Shown piece by piece: positions 16,304-48,902 of a stretch of 52,767 nucleotides of DNA (within the stretch, counting starts at the first letter, position 1; every line of letters starts with the position of its first letter). Origin of the DNA: a bacterium (GTDB lineage Bacteria > Patescibacteriota > Dojkabacteria > JAKAPS01); assembly GCA_021806925.1 (NCBI GenBank), contig JAKAPS010000002.1:65751-118517 (forward strand), given 5' to 3'. Below the pieces are notes generated by a model. It made no database searches and was not told the origin of the DNA. It saw only the letters and a program-made list of their open reading frames with translations. A program made the position numbers and the translations under genes.

Positions 16304-17038
16304 TTACATCTTCAATGCAAGTCTAATCTCATTTTGATGACTAGGTTTGGTTTTAATAATAGCTGTTGCTGATTTGTTACTTTGATCTTCTGAATATTCA
16401 ATAATTTCTATTTTCTCACTTAAAATATTTGCTCTTACATCTTCTGGTAAATTAGAAATACGTGTTTCAATATCTTTTATCCTTGAGTTTAATTCCTCAT
16501 CAGAGTTAAACTGTATTTTTATGCTTATTACTGAAAAACCAATAGATGTGTTTGTAATTAATGATGCAGTACTATTGGGTATTGTTGTTATCTCTCCTAA
16601 ATTATTTTTTATTGTGAAAGACCTCAAGGTCATATTTATTACAATACCTTCAATTTGAGGATTTGATAATTTTATATAATCACCAATACTAAATATATCT
16701 TCTGTGAATATAAAGATGCCATTTATATAATTATTCAGCAGATTCTGCAATGAGAAACTAATAATAAACCCAAATATTCCTACGCCTTCAAGAATAGGAG
16801 TTACATTAAAAAAATTTGTTAATATAATAACTATTGAAGATATTACCATTATAAGTATCACAATAGAGCGTACAAATGAATTTAAGGTATTTAATCTTCT
16901 TTTATATCTAGTGTGCGTATGAATTGGTGATATCTTTTTGTAATTATTGATTATATACTCCGTAGTTAATTGCGAAATAAATATTATTCCAAATCCGCTT
17001 ATTAAATCAATAACCAAATTTATTATTAAATTTCTCAT
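16304..17038 (-). CDS. MscS-family small-conductance mechanosensitive channel; start at MRNLIINLVIDL, ATGA overlap with mraY
   Basis: VGIFGFIISFSLQNLLNNYINGIFIFTEDIFSIGDYIKL; EGIVINMTLRSFTIKNNLGEITTIPNS. Confidence 0.85.
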   Translation of the reverse strand: MRNLIINLVIDLISGFGIIFISQLTTEYIINNYKKISPIHTHTRYKRRLNTLNSFVRSIVILIMVISSIVIILTNFFNVTPILEGVGIFGFIISFSLQNLLNNYINGIFIFTEDIFSIGDYIKLSNPQIEGIVINMTLRSFTIKNNLGEITTIPNSTASLITNTSIGFSVISIKIQFNSDEELNSRIKDIETRISNLPEDVRANILSEKIEIIEYSEDQSNKSATAIIKTKPSHQNEIRLALKM

Positions 17039-18144
17039 ATAAACGCTATAAATATTGATATAATTGCAAGAAAGAATGAAATAACCCAGAACCTCATAAC
17101 AATTCTTTCTTCTGACCACCCTATTTTTTCAAGATGATGATGAATAGGTGCAATTTTAAATATTTGTATATTAAATAGTTTCTTTCCAAGCTTTTGAATA
17201 ATTACACTGCCTACTTCAACTAAATAAGGTAATCCTGTAACAAACAATAGAAATTCTCTATGCATTAGAATAGATATAGTTGCGAGTAACGCACCGAGTG
17301 AAAGTGAACCAATATCCCCCATTTCAAACCTTGCTGGTTTTATATTGAAATAAAGATAAACAAGCAGAGTCCCAATTACTGTAGAGATAAAATAAGAGTA
17401 TTGTGTATAGTTATAAAAAATTGATAATGCAAGGAAGACTGAAAATGAATTTAAAAGTAAGCCAGCTGATAATCCGTCCACACCATCTGTTATATTTACG
17501 GCATTTGCATACAGTACAACAAGAAATATAGTTAGCGGAATAAGCCAGAAACCAATGTTAATATATCCAAATAATGGTATCCAAAGAAGCGTCCAATGAA
17601 CCTTAAAATATAACCAATAGCTTATTATTCCTCCAGCTATTATTTGAACAAGTACTTTCTCGTGTGGATGTAATCCTGTACCAAGACGTGACGAAAATGA
17701 ATAGAATATTGATTTATATATACTCCAAGGAATTAATAAAGCAAAATATATTCTTTTGAATATATTCACGTGTTTCAATGCTAAAAGAATAGTCCTTCTT
17801 AGAGGTCGTACTGTTCTTTTTCTACCAAATATATTCATTATGTCATCAATACCGCCTATTATTGCACAAAGCAGAAAAACAAATAATGGAAGCAAGGTAT
17901 ATCCCCTTGAATAATTGAAAAGTAAAGTAATAGAAACTATACTAATTACCATTATTATTCCTGCCATTATAGGGATGCCTTCTTTTTGGCGTCTTGTAGG
18001 AATCTGTTTATATGAGTCATCATATTCACCATTTCTTACTAATTTCAATTTATATAGAAGACTCGTGATAGGGAAAATTAATATGAGTGAAAGGGCTGCA
18101 GAAAGTAAAATATATTCAATTGAATGAAATAGTAGTGTTTTCAT
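17035..18144 (-). CDS. mraY: Phospho-N-acetylmuramoyl-pentapeptide transferase
   Basis: NAVNITDGVDGLSAG, MGDIGSLSLGALL, APIHHHLEKIGWSEERIVMRFWVIS. Confidence 0.93.
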   Translation of the reverse strand: MKTLLFHSIEYILLSAALSLILIFPITSLLYKLKLVRNGEYDDSYKQIPTRRQKEGIPIMAGIIMVISIVSITLLFNYSRGYTLLPLFVFLLCAIIGGIDDIMNIFGRKRTVRPLRRTILLALKHVNIFKRIYFALLIPWSIYKSIFYSFSSRLGTGLHPHEKVLVQIIAGGIISYWLYFKVHWTLLWIPLFGYINIGFWLIPLTIFLVVLYANAVNITDGVDGLSAGLLLNSFSVFLALSIFYNYTQYSYFISTVIGTLLVYLYFNIKPARFEMGDIGSLSLGALLATISILMHREFLLFVTGLPYLVEVGSVIIQKLGKKLFNIQIFKIAPIHHHLEKIGWSEERIVMRFWVISFFLAIISIFIAFI

Positions 18145-18794
18145 ATATTATTTAATAAATTTAAGCGTGCAATATAATTATCATTAATTGCATATTTAAT
18201 AAGTTTACTAAGTTTTTCACTTGCAAATTCCTGTAATACTATACTAGAATTCTTATTGACAACATTAACAATGGATCTTTCAACACCAATTCCGCTTGTT
18301 GAATGAGCTATAAGTATTTTCTTAGGGTAATTGCTATCATCATATTCAATTGATTCTACAATAGCAACATGTTTTCCGCCAGAAAATCTTATTAAATCAG
18401 AAACCATAATTCTTTCTATATCTTTTTTTGTTGCATTTAAATCTTTTGTTAAAGCATTTGCTGAAACTAGATTAACATTATTTTCCCTATATATTAAATA
18501 TTTTAAGTATGCGAGTGTATTTATTGGCTTTATACTTTTCACTAAATTCTTACCATATCGTTCTTCTAGTACTCTGTATACAAACCCAGAGCAATCAATT
18601 CCAATCCTATATTTTTCCAGTGTTTTTAAATCTACTATGTTATTATCAGTTGCAAATTTTTTAATATCATTTAAACTTCCCTTTCCTTTATATAGCAGAT
18701 TCCTACCACTAGTACTGTTATATATGTAATATGGAATACCAATCCATTTATCAATTATCGCAGTTAATGCCTTATCTTCAGATTTTAATATCAT
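18141..18794 (-). CDS. NlpC/P60-like cysteine peptidase/amidase
   Basis: Catalytic-type motifs GIDCSGFVYRVL, SGGKHVAIVESI, IAHSTSGIGVE; 4-bp overlaps with both neighbours. Confidence 0.7.
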   Translation of the reverse strand: MILKSEDKALTAIIDKWIGIPYYIYNSTSGRNLLYKGKGSLNDIKKFATDNNIVDLKTLEKYRIGIDCSGFVYRVLEERYGKNLVKSIKPINTLAYLKYLIYRENNVNLVSANALTKDLNATKKDIERIMVSDLIRFSGGKHVAIVESIEYDDSNYPKKILIAHSTSGIGVERSIVNVVNKNSSIVLQEFASEKLSKLIKYAINDNYIARLNLLNNI

Positions 18795-20155
18795 ATAATC
18801 TCAGTTCCATTATATATTTCTCTAACAATATTCAATATTGTATTATGTAATATATTATTGCCTTCAAAGAAATCAGATTTTCCAATTATTCTACAAAACT
18901 CACTTCTTGGTTGAATTACGCTACCTTTTGAATTTTCATTTATAAATATATTTGATGTTGAATATACATCATTTATACTGTATGCATTTTTCTCTATTAA
19001 TTTCATCGATCCATCTGAAAGATATAATCCGTTATATTCATTCTTAATTAAGATATTCTCTGTATTATGATTTCTTAAAACTAAAATAGATGCAATTTGA
19101 GGTAATGTATTAATATAGTTATATTCATTTCTATCAATCATTGGATCAATATTAAAATATTCTGCAAGGTGAATTAACGGCAATGAAATAACTCCATTCT
19201 CATCTTGTATCTTTGTAAAATCTTGAACGCTTGCAGTTTGTCTTGCATTAACCTCAATTATGTAAACATTATTGTTTTCATCAATTACAAAATCGATCCC
19301 AAACATTCCCCAGAATCCATTGTTAACATACAATTCAGACCCAACCTTATCAGTTATCTTTACAAGCTCATTTCTTAAAGTATCTGATAATCCATTTTGG
19401 TTAAAATTATTGCCACATGTTTCACCTTTACTTGCATTTATCTCCTTAATTGCAGTTATCTGATTTGATAATCCTGCTATATATGTCCCCCATTTTGTTG
19501 CAACCGCATTAATTGTGAAGTACTGATTACAAGAATCTATATATTGACTAATTTTACATGGAAATCCTGATAATTTTGAATTTACTAGATCAGTATATTC
19601 ATCTTCATTTTCTATTATATATGTACCATCTCCAGAATGTGATTTGTTCAGTTGAACTACAAATTTATTTCCATCGAATTGCCCAACCATTTCTTTATAT
19701 GTGATACCTTTATCAATAGTTGATATTATAATTTTCTTTGGAAAATATTCACCGATTACAGTATTCTTAAAATTATTAAAGAAAGATATTTTGTCTTCAA
19801 TCGATGAAGTAGATTCATAAGATGGATTAATTAACTCACAGCCGTATACAGTATTTCCTGGATTTGGTTGACTTTTAAAAAGCATTACAAATTTTTTTTG
19901 TTCTATATTATTAATATATTCAATAAATTTACTATCCTTATTTCTTACGAGATCCCTTGCAGAAAGACTTGTATTATCCTCAAAGTATTTTACCTTTACT
20001 CCTCTATTTTCTGCAATTCTTTTCTGATACCCGTTATCATTCGTTAATATCTCATAATTGTGAAGATAGTCCTCAAATAGGAACCCACGAGAAGCTCTAG
20101 GAGTTAAATAAAGGATAGTTCCTACTGTATTTAATTTATTAATAATATTAATCAC
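18791..20155 (-). CDS. ATP-grasp superfamily ligase
   Basis: VVQLNKSHSGDGTYIIENEDEY (ATP-binding lysine/glycine loop), MFGIDFVIDENNNVYIIEVNARQTAS (metal-binding E-x-N). Confidence 0.75.
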   Translation of the reverse strand: MINIINKLNTVGTILYLTPRASRGFLFEDYLHNYEILTNDNGYQKRIAENRGVKVKYFEDNTSLSARDLVRNKDSKFIEYINNIEQKKFVMLFKSQPNPGNTVYGCELINPSYESTSSIEDKISFFNNFKNTVIGEYFPKKIIISTIDKGITYKEMVGQFDGNKFVVQLNKSHSGDGTYIIENEDEYTDLVNSKLSGFPCKISQYIDSCNQYFTINAVATKWGTYIAGLSNQITAIKEINASKGETCGNNFNQNGLSDTLRNELVKITDKVGSELYVNNGFWGMFGIDFVIDENNNVYIIEVNARQTASVQDFTKIQDENGVISLPLIHLAEYFNIDPMIDRNEYNYINTLPQIASILVLRNHNTENILIKNEYNGLYLSDGSMKLIEKNAYSINDVYSTSNIFINENSKGSVIQPRSEFCRIIGKSDFFEGNNILHNTILNIVREIYNGTEII

Positions 20156-20159
20156 AAAT

Positions 20160-21020
20160 TTAACCTGAAATAATTATAACACTTCGTGACTGTCTTTTTA
20201 TATCCCCATTCTCAATTGCTTTAATATATCCTGCAAATGTTAGAGCACCATCATTAGTTAAATTAAGATTTTCAAGTCTTTTTAGTAGTTCAATAGAAGA
20301 TTCAATTCTTAGATTTTCTATTGCATAACTACTACCATGACTTTTATCAATTATCTTCGTTATTTCTTCTAAATATGGAGTTACAGGCATAGATATACAA
20401 TCAGCAATTGATGATGCTTCTGACTGAAAATTAAAATCATAAAGTTTTGCAACTGAGTTGTGTCTTGAATTTTGAATAGCAAAAAATTTATGTTCAGAAA
20501 CAAATCCTTTATATATTCCGCAAAAAGCAGTTCCACTACTTACATTTACAAAAATTGAATCAAACTCAGGTAGATCCTTTTCTATCTCCATCCCAAGTTT
20601 AGTATACCCCTCCATTGATGAGGCATGTTCAACAGTCGAATTTACAATGACACTTTTTTTATGTGATTTCATCCATTCAACCATCTCCTTTCTTGGATCA
20701 GCTACTGAATGTATATATATATTAAGAGAAAGTAAGCTATCAATTTTCTCTTTCTTCCTTTTGTCTATAGATTCAGATATGAAAATATGAAGAGATTTCT
20801 GATTTGAATTTTTAAAATATGTCATATATGAAATTGCAGCATTTCCTGAGCTTGAAAGTACAAGATCCTTATTTTTATATCTTGATAACACATTTATTGT
20901 TGCCCTATCCTTAAATGAACCGCTTAAATTCTTCGTTTCATCTTTTACCCATGTTTCAACTCCAGTATATTTTGATAATGACTCTAATAAATATATAGGA
21001 GTGTGTAATAATTTAGCCAT
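20160..21020 (-). CDS. PLP-dependent fold-type II enzyme, threonine-synthase-like (short, 286 aa)
   Basis: KDETKNLSGSFKDRATINV (PLP lysine motif), LSSSGNAAISYM. Confidence 0.75.
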   Translation of the reverse strand: MAKLLHTPIYLLESLSKYTGVETWVKDETKNLSGSFKDRATINVLSRYKNKDLVLSSSGNAAISYMTYFKNSNQKSLHIFISESIDKRKKEKIDSLLSLNIYIHSVADPRKEMVEWMKSHKKSVIVNSTVEHASSMEGYTKLGMEIEKDLPEFDSIFVNVSSGTAFCGIYKGFVSEHKFFAIQNSRHNSVAKLYDFNFQSEASSIADCISMPVTPYLEEITKIIDKSHGSSYAIENLRIESSIELLKRLENLNLTNDGALTFAGYIKAIENGDIKRQSRSVIIISG

Positions 21021-21030
21021 TTACAGCTTA

Positions 21031-21036
21031 ATTATA
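21031..21036 (-). promoter_or_regulatory. -10 element TATAAT, 10 nt before the PLP-enzyme ATG
   Basis: Reverse complement GTATAATTAAGCTGTAAATGG. Confidence 0.55.
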
Positions 21037-21074
21037 CATAATTTTTAAACTTATTTACATTTATGTTATTTTGA

Positions 21075-21080
21075 TATAAT
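21075..21080 (+). promoter_or_regulatory. -10 element TATAAT, 10 nt before the LysW-like ATG
   Basis: TTTACATTTATGTTATTTTGATATAATATGTTACCAAATG. Confidence 0.55.
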
Positions 21081-21090
21081 ATGTTACCAA

Positions 21091-21243
21091 ATGACTATAA
21101 TATGTGTTGATTGCGGACATGAAATAATATCAGAGGACGTAGAAGTTCATATTGGTGATACACTTGTATGCAATGTATGTGGTGCAGTTCAATCAGTTGT
21201 TGATAATTCAGGTAAGACTGTAGCCATATCAGAAGAAAAATAA
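21091..21243 (+). CDS. 50-aa zinc-ribbon protein resembling LysW amino-group carrier proteins (not in supplied ORF track)
   Basis: Translation MTIICVDCGHEIISEDVEVHIGDTLVCNVCGAVQSVVDNSGKTVAISEEK*; CxxCG-x(16-18)-LVCxxCGAxxxVV pattern of LysW; own -10 element. Confidence 0.75.
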   Translation: MTIICVDCGHEIISEDVEVHIGDTLVCNVCGAVQSVVDNSGKTVAISEEK

Positions 21244-21263: not shown

Positions 21264-22340
21264 TTAAAAATTCACTCTTATAACTTCAGGTATAAGTGTA
21301 ACATTGTATTGTTCTTTTACCTTTTTGATGGCGTATTCAATTAAATTATTGTAATCCTCTGATGATGTCCCCTCATTAATGAAGAAATTTGCATGTTTTT
21401 CATATATATAGGCGTTATTTATTCTAAAGCCTTTAAGGTTGCAACTATCAATAAGGTATCCAGCAGATATACTTGGTAAATTATATTTTAATTTTTCCTC
21501 TTCACTAAAATTCTTAAAAGTACTTCCGAGCGAATATCCCTTTGGTTGTACATTTACTTTCTGCTTTATCCAGTTTTTTGAAAAATCACTATAAATATTA
21601 ATATTTTCTTGTTTATATAATTTAAAGATGGCTCCAAGTATTACAATTGATTTGTCTTTTTGAAAAATACTTTTATCATATCCGAAATCCAATTCATTAT
21701 TAGAAAGTAACTTTATTTCCCTATTATTTTTTAGAACAACAACAGCGTCAATGTAGTTTGATAATAGCTCAATTCCCCCATGCACATTGTTATATATAGC
21801 ACCGGAAACATTTGCTGGAATATATGAAAACCAGTGTAATCCAGAGAATCCTATTTCTAGTGTGTACTGTATTAAATATGATAATCTTACTCCTGATTCT
21901 GCAAAAACATATACAGGATTGGATTTATCCTCCTTAAAATATATACTTGATAAATTTAAACTTGCAGTGCTTTTATCCCCTTGTTTTAGATCATAATTGG
22001 ATCTAGTTTCAGGTATACTATCGCTTATGCATGAATAATTTTCTAATATAAAAATACCGTTACTAGATATCTTAACAACATCACCGATGTATTTCTTATC
22101 TGAGAATAAAACATCTGATCCGTTCCCTAAAAAAAATGGAACTTTTAGATCCTCAAATTCATTTGTATATTTAAATTTAGTATTTTTAATATATTCTAGG
22201 AAATTTAGCCTATCTATATTTGTATTATATAGATCTCTGAATTCCATATATCTAGAACATTTACCACCTAAATGAATTCTTGTGACTTCACTTAATGGAT
22301 AATTTCGTTTTAATGTATAACTTAATTTTCTTTTTTCCAT
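21264..22340 (-). CDS. murB: UDP-N-acetylenolpyruvoylglucosamine reductase
   Basis: FLGNGSDVLFSDK, SYIPANVSGAIYNNVHGG, KGYSLGSTFKNF, GYLIDSCNLKG, ANFFINEG. Confidence 0.9.
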   Translation of the reverse strand: MEKRKLSYTLKRNYPLSEVTRIHLGGKCSRYMEFRDLYNTNIDRLNFLEYIKNTKFKYTNEFEDLKVPFFLGNGSDVLFSDKKYIGDVVKISSNGIFILENYSCISDSIPETRSNYDLKQGDKSTASLNLSSIYFKEDKSNPVYVFAESGVRLSYLIQYTLEIGFSGLHWFSYIPANVSGAIYNNVHGGIELLSNYIDAVVVLKNNREIKLLSNNELDFGYDKSIFQKDKSIVILGAIFKLYKQENINIYSDFSKNWIKQKVNVQPKGYSLGSTFKNFSEEEKLKYNLPSISAGYLIDSCNLKGFRINNAYIYEKHANFFINEGTSSEDYNNLIEYAIKKVKEQYNVTLIPEVIRVNF

Positions 22341-27575: not shown

Positions 27576-27824
27576 TCATTTTTTTAAAGGAGGCACGGGA
27601 TCATAGCCTCCTTTTGAAAATGGGTTACATCTAAGAATTCTATAAGAGGCCATTATTGACCCCTTAAATATCCCATGCGTATCTATCGCTTCTTTTCCAT
27701 AATCAGAACATGTTGGTGAATACTTACAATATCCAGCAGGAAAAAATCTTTTAAAAATTCCGTGATCAGGAGATATGGTCTTCTGATATACATCAATAAG
27801 GAATATAAATATCTTTTTCATCAT
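27576..27824 (-). CDS. yidD: Membrane protein insertion efficiency factor YidD
   Basis: [49 protein letters not shown]. Confidence 0.95.
27586..27615 (+). terminator. Hairpin AAAGGAGGC-N11-GCCTCCTTT downstream of nrdJ, inside the yidD 3' end
   Basis: 9-bp perfect stem; only a short T-run follows on +. Confidence 0.4.
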
Positions 27825-28807
27825 TGCCCTATAAAATCCTGAACAAAAATCTCTTCGTACTGACTTTTTCCGCCATTTATGACTCCTATTCCTACATCAG
27901 TATAGTTTTGATTTAATATATTTTCTCTGTGAGGAACACTTTTCATAAATCCAATATCTGCTGATGAGACATTTGGAGCTAATGCTATGTTTTCACCTAC
28001 ATAAACAAAGTTCAAATTACTACTTTGTATTCTGTCTAAAGGAGTTTGTCCCTGTGGTGTTATATGCGAAAAAAATCCATTAGTATACATATATTTACCA
28101 TAATTTTCAGCAATTGTTGATAGTGATTTATTTAATTTTAGCGGTTGTAATCCGATACTTTCTCTTTGTGAATTTATGAAATTAAACATTGTTGTCTCGT
28201 CACTTTTGGAAACTGTTGTATTAGTTGTTTTAAAACCTAACTCAATAAGTTTCTCACCGTTTTGTGAAGTGTTATTTGATAATAGATTTGTAGGAAGTGT
28301 AGCAATTTGAGAAATTGTTTGCGAAATATTTGCTCCATATTTGCCTGCTAACTCCTTTGATATATATAAAAGATTTGATGCAATATATGAAGAATTTATT
28401 GCAGTTTTTACATTATTTGGAATTGGTAATATAACAACAACATAAACAATAACTGTAACAATAATAAGACCTTTAATTACACTTCCAACAAACCCTGCAA
28501 TTTGGTTAATATAATTCTTTATTATAATATTGGGAATAAATTTCAGTGAAAGTGGTGCAATAATGTAATATACAAACATAAATATTGTCCAGCACAAAAC
28601 TATAGCAAGGATATCAATATATGATTTAGGTAGAAAATTTAATTTTGGGTATATAAGGTTAAATACTAAATATGAGTACCTTATAGATACATAATATGAA
28701 AGAATATAACCTATTATCTCTAAAACTATTCCAATAAAACCAGTTCTCAATCCTCTTAATCCATAGAAAAGGAGAATACATATAATTATAATATCAATAT
28801 AGTTCAC
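27821..28807 (-). CDS. CvpA-like membrane domain fused to CAP/SCP-PR1 domain
   Basis: N-term [34 protein letters not shown] (CvpA); C-term [50 protein letters not shown] ... VGENIA (CAP). Confidence 0.85.
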
Positions 28808-47504: not shown

Positions 47505-48902
47505 TTACTCTAATAATTTTCTTTTTATATTTTTAAATTCTGAACTTTGTCTACATAATTTAACGGTATCTAACTTGTTATACAGTAAATCCTCAACAAT
47601 AACTTCAAGAAAAATTGTGTTTTGAGATCCTTTAACTAAACAAATTGAGTTTTTCTGAATATCAGAAAACTTCGTTTGTATTAGATAATTATGCATATCT
47701 TTTGTTGAACTAAAAAATCTCACATTTGTAAGATTCTTTTTATCTGTCAAATATGGAAATACATATTTTTGCATTGCTTCACCAGTAAGAAAAATGCTGC
47801 TATAGTTATGATTAGAAATATATCTTGCAATTTTTCTATGTTCAGATTCTTCCATTATTCCTAACTCTCTCATATCTCCTAATATAAGTATTTTGGGTCT
47901 ATCAAATGAATCGATCAATTTCAACATTGATATTAACGGTTCGTAAGATGAGTTATATGTACTATCAATAATAACAGAGGAATTAATACCACGAAATATA
48001 GATGAACGACCACTAGGAAATTCAGCTTTTTTTAATGCAATAATAAATTTCTTATTCTTTATCCCCCTATCAATCGCAAATTTGTATAGAAGTGCAATTG
48101 ATGTAAAAAATTCAATTTGCAAAATCTGCTTTGGTAATGTAACAACCACTTCTTTTCCCTTAAAAGAAAATGTGTAGTCCGTACCTCTTGATGTTATTTT
48201 GTGATCTAGAAACTTTATATCATTTAATTTATCTGAGAATCTAAATGTATATACATTATTTAATTCATTCTTGATTTTATAATTTGAATTTATATATCCA
48301 TGTTTTAGATTTTCATTATTCCTTATTGGAGTTAAAAATTCATTTATAATTTTCATATTCATAAGATTAGAGATAGAATGATTTCTTTTATTCTTTCCAT
48401 CATCTATAGAACTATTATTTGCAACCCCATTTCTATTTTTATCCTCAAAATTCAGAGTATGAGTTAATCCAAAACCAGATATAAATACTACATCAGGCTT
48501 TAATAAATTATTCGTTATATTTAATTCTCCATTCCTATCGCTATCTGCTTCAACTATAAGAATATCGGTGTTTATCCCCTTACCAAATATTGATTTAATC
48601 GGTGCTAATAACAAAGACTTAATCCAGAATAAAATGCCTTTTTTGTCACTATTTAAACCTAGTAATGCTAAAGGGATTCCTAGTGATGAATTAGCATGTT
48701 CTAGTATCTTAAAACTTCTTGATGATTCGGAACACTTGAGAATTGAATCAAGCATTGCAACCAAGGTACTCTTCCCCCATGATCCAGTTACAAGAATTAC
48801 TTCTGTTTTTTTCCTATTTATTTTATATTTTGCAAAAAACGCAAAATACTTTGAAAAAATAAAATAATATCTCTTTTTGATGTATTCGATATATCCACCC
48901 AT
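47505..48902 (-). CDS. Mur ligase family protein (MurF-like, lacking the usual N-terminal domain)
   Basis: P-loop VTGSWGKSTLVAML; VIIDSTYNSSYEPLISML; ILGDMRELGIMEESEHRKIA; LVKGSQNT. Confidence 0.8.
   Translation of the reverse strand: MGGYIEYIKKRYYFIFSKYFAFFAKYKINRKKTEVILVTGSWGKSTLVAMLDSILKCSESSRSFKILEHANSSLGIPLALLGLNSDKKGILFWIKSLLLAPIKSIFGKGINTDILIVEADSDRNGELNITNNLLKPDVVFISGFGLTHTLNFEDKNRNGVANNSSIDDGKNKRNHSISNLMNMKIINEFLTPIRNNENLKHGYINSNYKIKNELNNVYTFRFSDKLNDIKFLDHKITSRGTDYTFSFKGKEVVVTLPKQILQIEFFTSIALLYKFAIDRGIKNKKFIIALKKAEFPSGRSSIFRGINSSVIIDSTYNSSYEPLISMLKLIDSFDRPKILILGDMRELGIMEESEHRKIARYISNHNYSSIFLTGEAMQKYVFPYLTDKKNLTNVRFFSSTKDMHNYLIQTKFSDIQKNSICLVKGSQNTIFLEVIVEDLLYNKLDTVKLCRQSSEFKNIKRKLLE

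Follow-up and report, generated by a model that had tools for sequence, protein, structure and literature searches.

Assembly of the peptidoglycan stem peptide by MurC, MurD, MurE and MurF on UDP-N-acetylmuramic acid (UDP-MurNAc) serves as a drug target and is regarded as almost universal among bacteria with a wall; within it, MurD makes the bond that joins L-Ala to the amine of D-Glu. The closest described relatives of the gene set reported here are the LysW/ArgW amino-group carrier proteins (AmCP) of Thermus, Sulfolobus and haloarchaea (PMC10433800; PMC9303977), with which it shares a zinc-ribbon carrier of about 50 amino acids, an acidic tail on that carrier, an ATP-grasp ligase and a releasing peptidase. 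The set is found in a 52,767-nucleotide stretch of a Dojkabacteria genome (GenBank assembly GCA_021806925.1, contig JAKAPS010000002.1, positions 65,751 to 118,517 of the forward strand; the whole stretch is called the window below), where a LysW-like zinc ribbon, the carrier, is encoded beside a pyridoxal 5′-phosphate (PLP) enzyme (PALP), an ATP-grasp ligase and an NlpC/P60-type peptidase (NlpC). With about even confidence, the cluster can be read as a route, based on a carrier protein, to the part of the stem peptide that contains D-Glu; it would replace the MurI/MurD step in many bacteria of the Candidate Phyla Radiation (CPR). No description of this gene set was found in the open-licence literature, and it appears to be new as a system; confidence in its function is moderate and in its exact chemistry low.

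Membership in the LysW system itself was ruled out by the C-terminus, the ligase family and the partner genes; of the features defining that system only the zinc ribbon was found. LysW ends in EDWGE, whereas the present carrier ends in Lys, and the AmCP ligase is of the LysX/RimK type with a GSWGR motif, whereas the RimK family is absent from the Pfam matches of the ligase described here and the GSWGR motif from its sequence. LysZ, LysY, LysJ and LysK are likewise missing from the carrier neighbourhoods (a genome-wide search was not made), which are tied to peptidoglycan genes. The view of the initial annotation that none of the cluster genes resembles LysX, LysZ, LysY, LysJ or LysK therefore stands, since the neighbourhoods hold PALP, ATP-grasp, NlpC and Mur genes. 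MurD2/MurL of Xanthomonas also supplies D-Glu to the stem peptide without glutamate racemase (PMC8788868), and solves the same problem in a different way. In the pearlin (PEARL) pathways, the ribosome makes a carrier peptide at whose C-terminus an amino acid is processed before being cut off (PMC9303977), but there aminoacyl-tRNA extends the carboxyl end, whereas the present set has a zinc-ribbon carrier with an ATP-grasp ligase and apparently belongs to primary metabolism. Finally, the murein peptide ligase Mpl, a MurC homologue, can attach a ready-made peptide to UDP-MurNAc, as is proposed below for a MurC-like ligase; Mpl differs in that it recycles peptide and does not replace de novo synthesis.

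The carrier gene (21091-21243, + strand) encodes a 50-amino-acid zinc ribbon of the CxxC...CxxC type with the C-terminus ...SEEK. Divergent from it and separated by 70 bp, an operon on the - strand begins with PALP (20160-21020), a fold-type-II PLP enzyme of the threonine-synthase/serine-racemase superfamily with Lys37 in a GSFKDR motif (PF00291, E=1e-33). After a gap of 4 bp follow the ATP-grasp carboxylate-amine ligase (18791-20155, GTG start; PF02655, E=6e-9, above cut-off), whose fold is PurK/biotin-carboxylase/PylC-like, the cytoplasmic cysteine peptidase NlpC (18141-18794) and, as the final gene, MraY (17035-18144; TIGR00445, E=2e-51). The ATP-grasp and NlpC genes overlap by 4 bp, as do those of NlpC and MraY, and all coordinates, strands, gaps and overlaps first assigned to the carrier and operon genes were confirmed. 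The closest named relatives carrying the ATP-grasp protein of this operon belong to Candidatus Dojkabacteria (WS6).

Alone, the window carrier matches the LysW model TIGR01206 weakly (16 bits; cut-off 53). A profile of its family (28 members) matches, among PDB entries, Thermus LysW (3wwl, E=5.9e-8) and a Thermococcus-type LysW complex (E=1e-6); the higher total score of a C2H2 zinc-finger protein is due only to its repeated Cys motif. Together with Pfam Zn_ribbon_LysW (PF21344), which matches 20 of the 28 members, this bears out the LysW-like spacing initially read from the 50-amino-acid protein. The four cysteines (C5, C8, C27 and C30) and the terminal Lys (K50) are invariant in two alignments (28/28 and 44/44 homologues). 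This Lys is the most conserved feature of the carrier after the zinc cysteines and is kept in 63 of 64 distinct homologues, and the ...SEEK ending, initially regarded as a doubt on the carrier role, thus no longer counts as one. The sole exception (L225:8322-8648; Lnnn denotes fetched loci and Gnnn genomes, G000 being the 928-kb window genome) ends in ...EDWGQ and is a true LysW from G112, another CPR genome, encoded in a Lys/Arg-type cluster with ligases of LysX/ArgX size and with no PALP, ATP-grasp or NlpC; it serves as an internal control for the Lys-tipped rule. G112 also holds a PALP–ATP-grasp pair elsewhere, and a true LysW and a Lys-tipped system may coexist in it. One carrier family has a long insert between the Cys pairs and retains the terminal Lys (...EPSDMMK, ...ESDEEK), and carriers of the Magasanik/Taylor group end in ...DEGK. 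Because dN/dS (the ratio of non-synonymous to synonymous substitution rates) is ~0.05 in close pairs, the carrier is under strong purifying selection, and it is conserved far beyond chance. To judge from sequence, a loading site would look like this: a terminal residue that never varies, on an acidic tail that does, in the company of a ligase and a peptidase.

In PALP, the PLP lysine K37 and N60 of the Asn loop are invariant in the alignment. Threonine synthase activity, or another part in threonine biosynthesis, was rejected for this protein, which reaches 105 of 358 bits for PRK08329 and 32 of 167 bits for TIGR00260; its profile matches serine and aspartate racemases of the fold-type-II superfamily, and SbnA-like PALPs are also relatives. 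The best NCBIfam match of the ATP-grasp protein is PRK06524 (E=4e-25), and the ATP loop as well as E301, N303 and R305 (ExNxR) are conserved. Its model (predicted local distance difference test score, pLDDT, 93) has the fold of PurK and biotin carboxylase (Z 25 to 21, PurK Z=25), with PylC among many tied matches (Z=22.5); LysX is not among the 50 best fold matches, a listing that excludes nothing. Its top PDB sequence match is the propargylglycine-glutamate ligase BesA (weak, E=1e-4). PylC of the pyrrolysine pathway is an ATP-grasp ligase forming an isopeptide on a lysine epsilon-amine; it shares the fold of the window protein but acts on free lysine. NlpC is matched weakly by sequence alone (E=0.006), and its model (pLDDT 90) resembles MepS (Z=12.9, root-mean-square deviation 2.5, 122 residues aligned) as well as CwlO and gamma-D-Glu-diamino-acid endopeptidases. 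The catalytic C68 and H142 are invariant across alignments, so that both the NlpC/P60 fold, as predicted, and its Cys/His pair are found. A function as a wall hydrolase is disfavoured, since no signal peptide is visible in the sequence and relatives are fused to cytoplasmic ligases.

The ATP-grasp gene is present in 34 of 77 relatives, and in the roughly 8 kb fetched on either side of it carrier, PALP, ATP-grasp and NlpC recur jointly throughout the class. The ATP-grasp profile, run against GTDB genomes, gave 80 loci, essentially all in CPR bacteria (Dojkabacteria, Magasanik-, Taylor-, Uhr-, Wolfe- and Nomurabacteria); a 3 kb contig under the label Melioribacter is probably a binning error. 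The core of the set is conserved in the first five of these groups, among others. A local accident is ruled out by this recurrence across CPR lineages, and the gene set is well supported as a shared system of many CPR bacteria. Over all loci, PALP lay within 300 bp of the carrier on the opposite strand at 50 of the 61 with PALP in view. The same divergent pair is seen in the Magasanik/Taylor group, 2-5 kb from a MurB/ATP-grasp–NlpC–MraY block. MraY follows NlpC in many CPR loci, MurB adjoins the carrier or ATP-grasp in many relatives, and the neighbours further include a MurC-like ligase with a full UDP-binding domain, MurA, a short MurE (adjoining the carrier in L230), MurF, Ddl, FtsW and MurG. 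ATP-grasp is fused to NlpC in five loci (L105, L107, L125, L128 and L137), and a MurC-like ligase is fused to NlpC in L233 and to an ATE-like protein in L228. The coupling of the carrier to PALP, ATP-grasp and NlpC that had been proposed from the window is therefore a conserved adjacency across the class and other CPR lineages, and both this adjacency and the LysW homology, on which the initial annotation had staked its proposal, were found. Fourteen Dojkabacteria loci (L038:6259-6774 and 13 others) also carry an S-adenosylmethionine (SAM) methyltransferase-like gene of ~170-190 amino acids with a hydrophobic N-terminus, mostly between PALP and ATP-grasp. The same ATP-grasp family occurs without carrier, in other contexts, in some MurD-positive genomes (L236 and L238 in G095 and G096; L067 and L068 in G048 and G051).

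The carrier and canonical MurD (TIGR01087 above cut-off) nearly exclude each other. Among the 77 relatives, the carrier profile is strong in 29 and MurD is present in 17, with no overlap (Fisher 1e-4); in the phylum at large, 26 of 381 genomes have a carrier-profile hit and 257 have MurD, one genome having both (Fisher p=2e-12). ATP-grasp is present in all 26 of these carrier-profile genomes, one of which, G112, is the true LysW case. The window genome has no MurD above cut-off, its best TIGR01087 match (E=5e-17) being a MurE-like protein. Families f11 and f15 each hold both states, and the switch between carrier and MurD therefore probably occurred more than once. MurI above cut-off was found in none of the carrier-positive genomes among the 77 relatives, the sole one in this sample being that of G048. 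The link to the cell wall suggested at the outset is thus upheld by the Mur-gene neighbours and the near-exclusion of MurD. Of the two products then envisaged, a peptidoglycan component is favoured by the neighbours and the phylogenetic profile, which point to the core stem-peptide pathway, and a secreted metabolite is not.

A candidate for the missing MurD step is seen in Paceibacteria-type loci, where MraY and the MurC-like ligase flank an ATE-like gene; this slot is taken in L102 by a DUF1611 gene, and the window genome likewise has DUF1611. Homology of the ATE-like proteins to ATE/Bpt was found by sequence over most of the length (PRK01305, E=4e-13 over residues 41-210), ATE_C (PF04377) being above cut-off in L100 and L230 and just below it in L103, L133, L228, L232 and L233. 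ATE/Bpt enzymes add an amino acid to an N-terminal Asp or Glu at its alpha-amine; DUF1611 is annotated as DgcN, a D-Glu N-acetyltransferase that acts on the D-Glu amine. Among carrier genomes DUF1611 passes the cut-off in only five, and among the 30 MurD-positive controls in none. Before testing, the ATE-like gene was predicted to be missing from these five genomes, to occur in most of the remaining carrier genomes and to be missing from the MurD-positive controls. The prediction held: it was found in 39 carrier-system genomes, 0/5 DUF1611 genomes and 0/30 controls. Neither gene occurs in four carrier genomes with a MurD-like ligase, and none of the three was found in G041 and G112. Since ATE-like, DUF1611 and MurD-like genes are never paired in one carrier-system genome (39, 5 and 4 genomes, respectively), they behave as alternatives.

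The downstream ligases are altered as well. The P-loop of MurE sits at residue 31-61 in the carrier-positive genomes examined versus 143-178 in the MurD-positive controls, which means that the UDP-binding domain is missing from the former. MurE of the window genome (L181:5347-6669) consists of the middle and C-terminal domains only (no PF01225, P-loop at residue 33) and is encoded in a second locus, L181 on contig C5, where the gene order is RsmH, FtsI, MurA, a 276-amino-acid protein, the short MurE, DUF1611 and a MurC-like ligase. The MurF-like ligase of the window (47505-48902, - strand) also lacks the usual N-terminal domain (TIGR01143, E=1e-41 over residues 111-439; no PF01225; P-loop at residue 40). 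MurC-like proteins of CPR bacteria are nearer MurC than Mpl in score, under both cut-offs. No MurE was found on the fetched stretches around the MurD-like carrier loci of G093, G372 and G402. Four loci (L192, L208, L187 and L197 in G020, G011, G014 and G021) encode MurF-like ligases of 574-595 amino acids, in which a long N-terminal region replaces the usual domain; their P-loop, where found, is near residue 235, and the hydrophobic start perhaps anchors them in the membrane. Elsewhere in the window, MurB (21264-22340, - strand; TIGR00179, E=9e-38) is convergent with the carrier, and the product of 27821-28807 (- strand) resembles, by eye, a CvpA membrane protein with a C-terminal CAP/SCP-like domain. 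The 276-amino-acid protein between MurA and the short MurE (L181:6659-7489) gave no match in Pfam and NCBIfam scans.

These features can be brought together, at somewhat less than even confidence, in a scheme in which the stem peptide is built partly or wholly off the nucleotide, on or via the terminal Lys of the carrier, an aminoacyl-tRNA-dependent transferase replaces MurD, and UDP-MurNAc is joined afterwards. The specific chemistry that follows is tentative; we infer every substrate and the order of the steps. ATP-grasp would join the gamma-carboxyl of glutamate to the amine of the C-terminal lysine, a linkage that would keep both alpha groups (amine and carboxyl) accessible, first to PALP and next to ATE or DUF1611. 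PALP, an enzyme that requires an unblocked alpha-amino acid, would act on the tethered glutamate and most likely racemise it to D-Glu. The ATE-like transferase, or DUF1611 in the window genome, would then add L-Ala to the alpha-amine and so create the L-Ala-D-Glu bond that normally comes from MurD. NlpC, because its relatives cut gamma-D-Glu-diamino-acid bonds, is the candidate for cleaving the gamma-D-Glu–Lys bond, with release of L-Ala-D-Glu and free carrier. The peptide would be extended by MurE, and in the window genome also by MurF, both without a UDP-binding domain, and a MurC/Mpl-like ligase retaining that domain would join it to UDP-MurNAc before MraY acts. Linkage of the terminal Lys to peptidoglycan in the manner of Braun lipoprotein is disfavoured, the zinc protein and the ligase being cytoplasmic.

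Several points weigh against this scheme. Racemisation by PALP and attachment through the epsilon-amine (versus the alpha-carboxyl) are guesses, and DUF1611 is annotated as a D-Glu N-acetyltransferase, not as an alanyl transferase. The Fisher tests ignore phylogeny, and the whole-genome carrier search misses members, as Lys-ended carriers were found on closer reading of the ATP-grasp loci in G093, G108, G125, G155 and G402. A MurD-like ligase stands beside the carrier in four genomes (G093, G155, G372 and G402), and a divergent MurD-like protein beside PALP in Taylorbacteria-type loci (L112, L119, L135, L138, L140, L143 and L149), which also have the ATE-like gene; two of these proteins that were scanned reach 126 and 146 bits, under the MurD cut-off. 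Replacement of MurD is therefore not universal. The P-loops of two such Taylorbacteria-type proteins are odd (GMCGKS and GLYGKS). A short MurE occurs in G003 without carrier, ATP-grasp or MurD, and this genome is either an exception or has an assembly gap. Of the 17 MurD-positive relatives, 16 likewise lack MurI, and its absence is thus not specific to carrier-positive genomes.

The last observation bears on a rather unlikely explanation, in which carrier, PALP, ATP-grasp and NlpC make only free D-Glu through carrier-bound racemisation, as a MurI substitute, and the changes in ATE, DUF1611 and MurE are a separate rewiring. It would fit the absence of MurI from carrier-positive relatives, the constancy of the core against a changing MurD replacement (ATE, DUF1611 or MurD-like) and the four genomes in which the core is accompanied by a MurD-like ligase, an enzyme expected to take D-Glu in free form. 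However, MurD-positive genomes without carrier mostly lack MurI too and hence must have another source of D-Glu, and this explanation alone leaves the restriction of ATE-like and DUF1611 genes to carrier genomes unaccounted for. It is quite improbable that the route produces the diamino acid of position 3 (a lysine or diaminopimelic acid analogue), since MurD is the gene that disappears and the accessory genes, of the ATE family and DgcN/DUF1611, suggest a reaction at the glutamate or aspartate amine. Under that proposal PALP would build the side chain as its SbnA-like relatives do, which use amines as nucleophiles; the lysine tip could be the amine, and MurE is the altered ligase. Closer to known AmCP logic, the first amino acid of the stem could be attached by its amine to the alpha-carboxyl of the terminal lysine, with the short MurE and MurF extending the chain on the carrier, in place of UDP-MurNAc, until release by NlpC. 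The LysW-like fold, the position of the carrier beside the short MurE in L230 and the lack of a UDP-binding domain in MurE and the window MurF, as expected for another tether, speak for this. It has nevertheless only a limited chance of being correct: PALP, the closest partner of the carrier, is left without an obvious role, as an amine already joined to the carrier is unavailable for the aldimine with PLP, and no reason is given for lysine instead of the glutamate of LysW. Small zinc ribbons often bind proteins, the carrier role is a prediction from sequence and the window protein alone is weak against LysW, but the invariant terminal residue, the variable acidic tail and the ligase and peptidase partners make it very improbable that the protein carries nothing and serves these enzymes as a partner in regulation or structure.

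With the carrier route to the D-Glu-containing peptide as the preferred reading, the stem-peptide pathway seems to have been reorganised around a carrier in a large radiation of uncultured bacteria, with loss of MurD and of the UDP-binding domain of MurE. Should this be correct, it would explain how bacteria annotated without the D-Glu and MurD steps can have walls. It would also add a lysine-tipped class of carrier proteins and a metabolic role for ATE-like transferases, and would constitute a third route to the cell-wall peptide besides MurI/MurD and MurD2/MurL.

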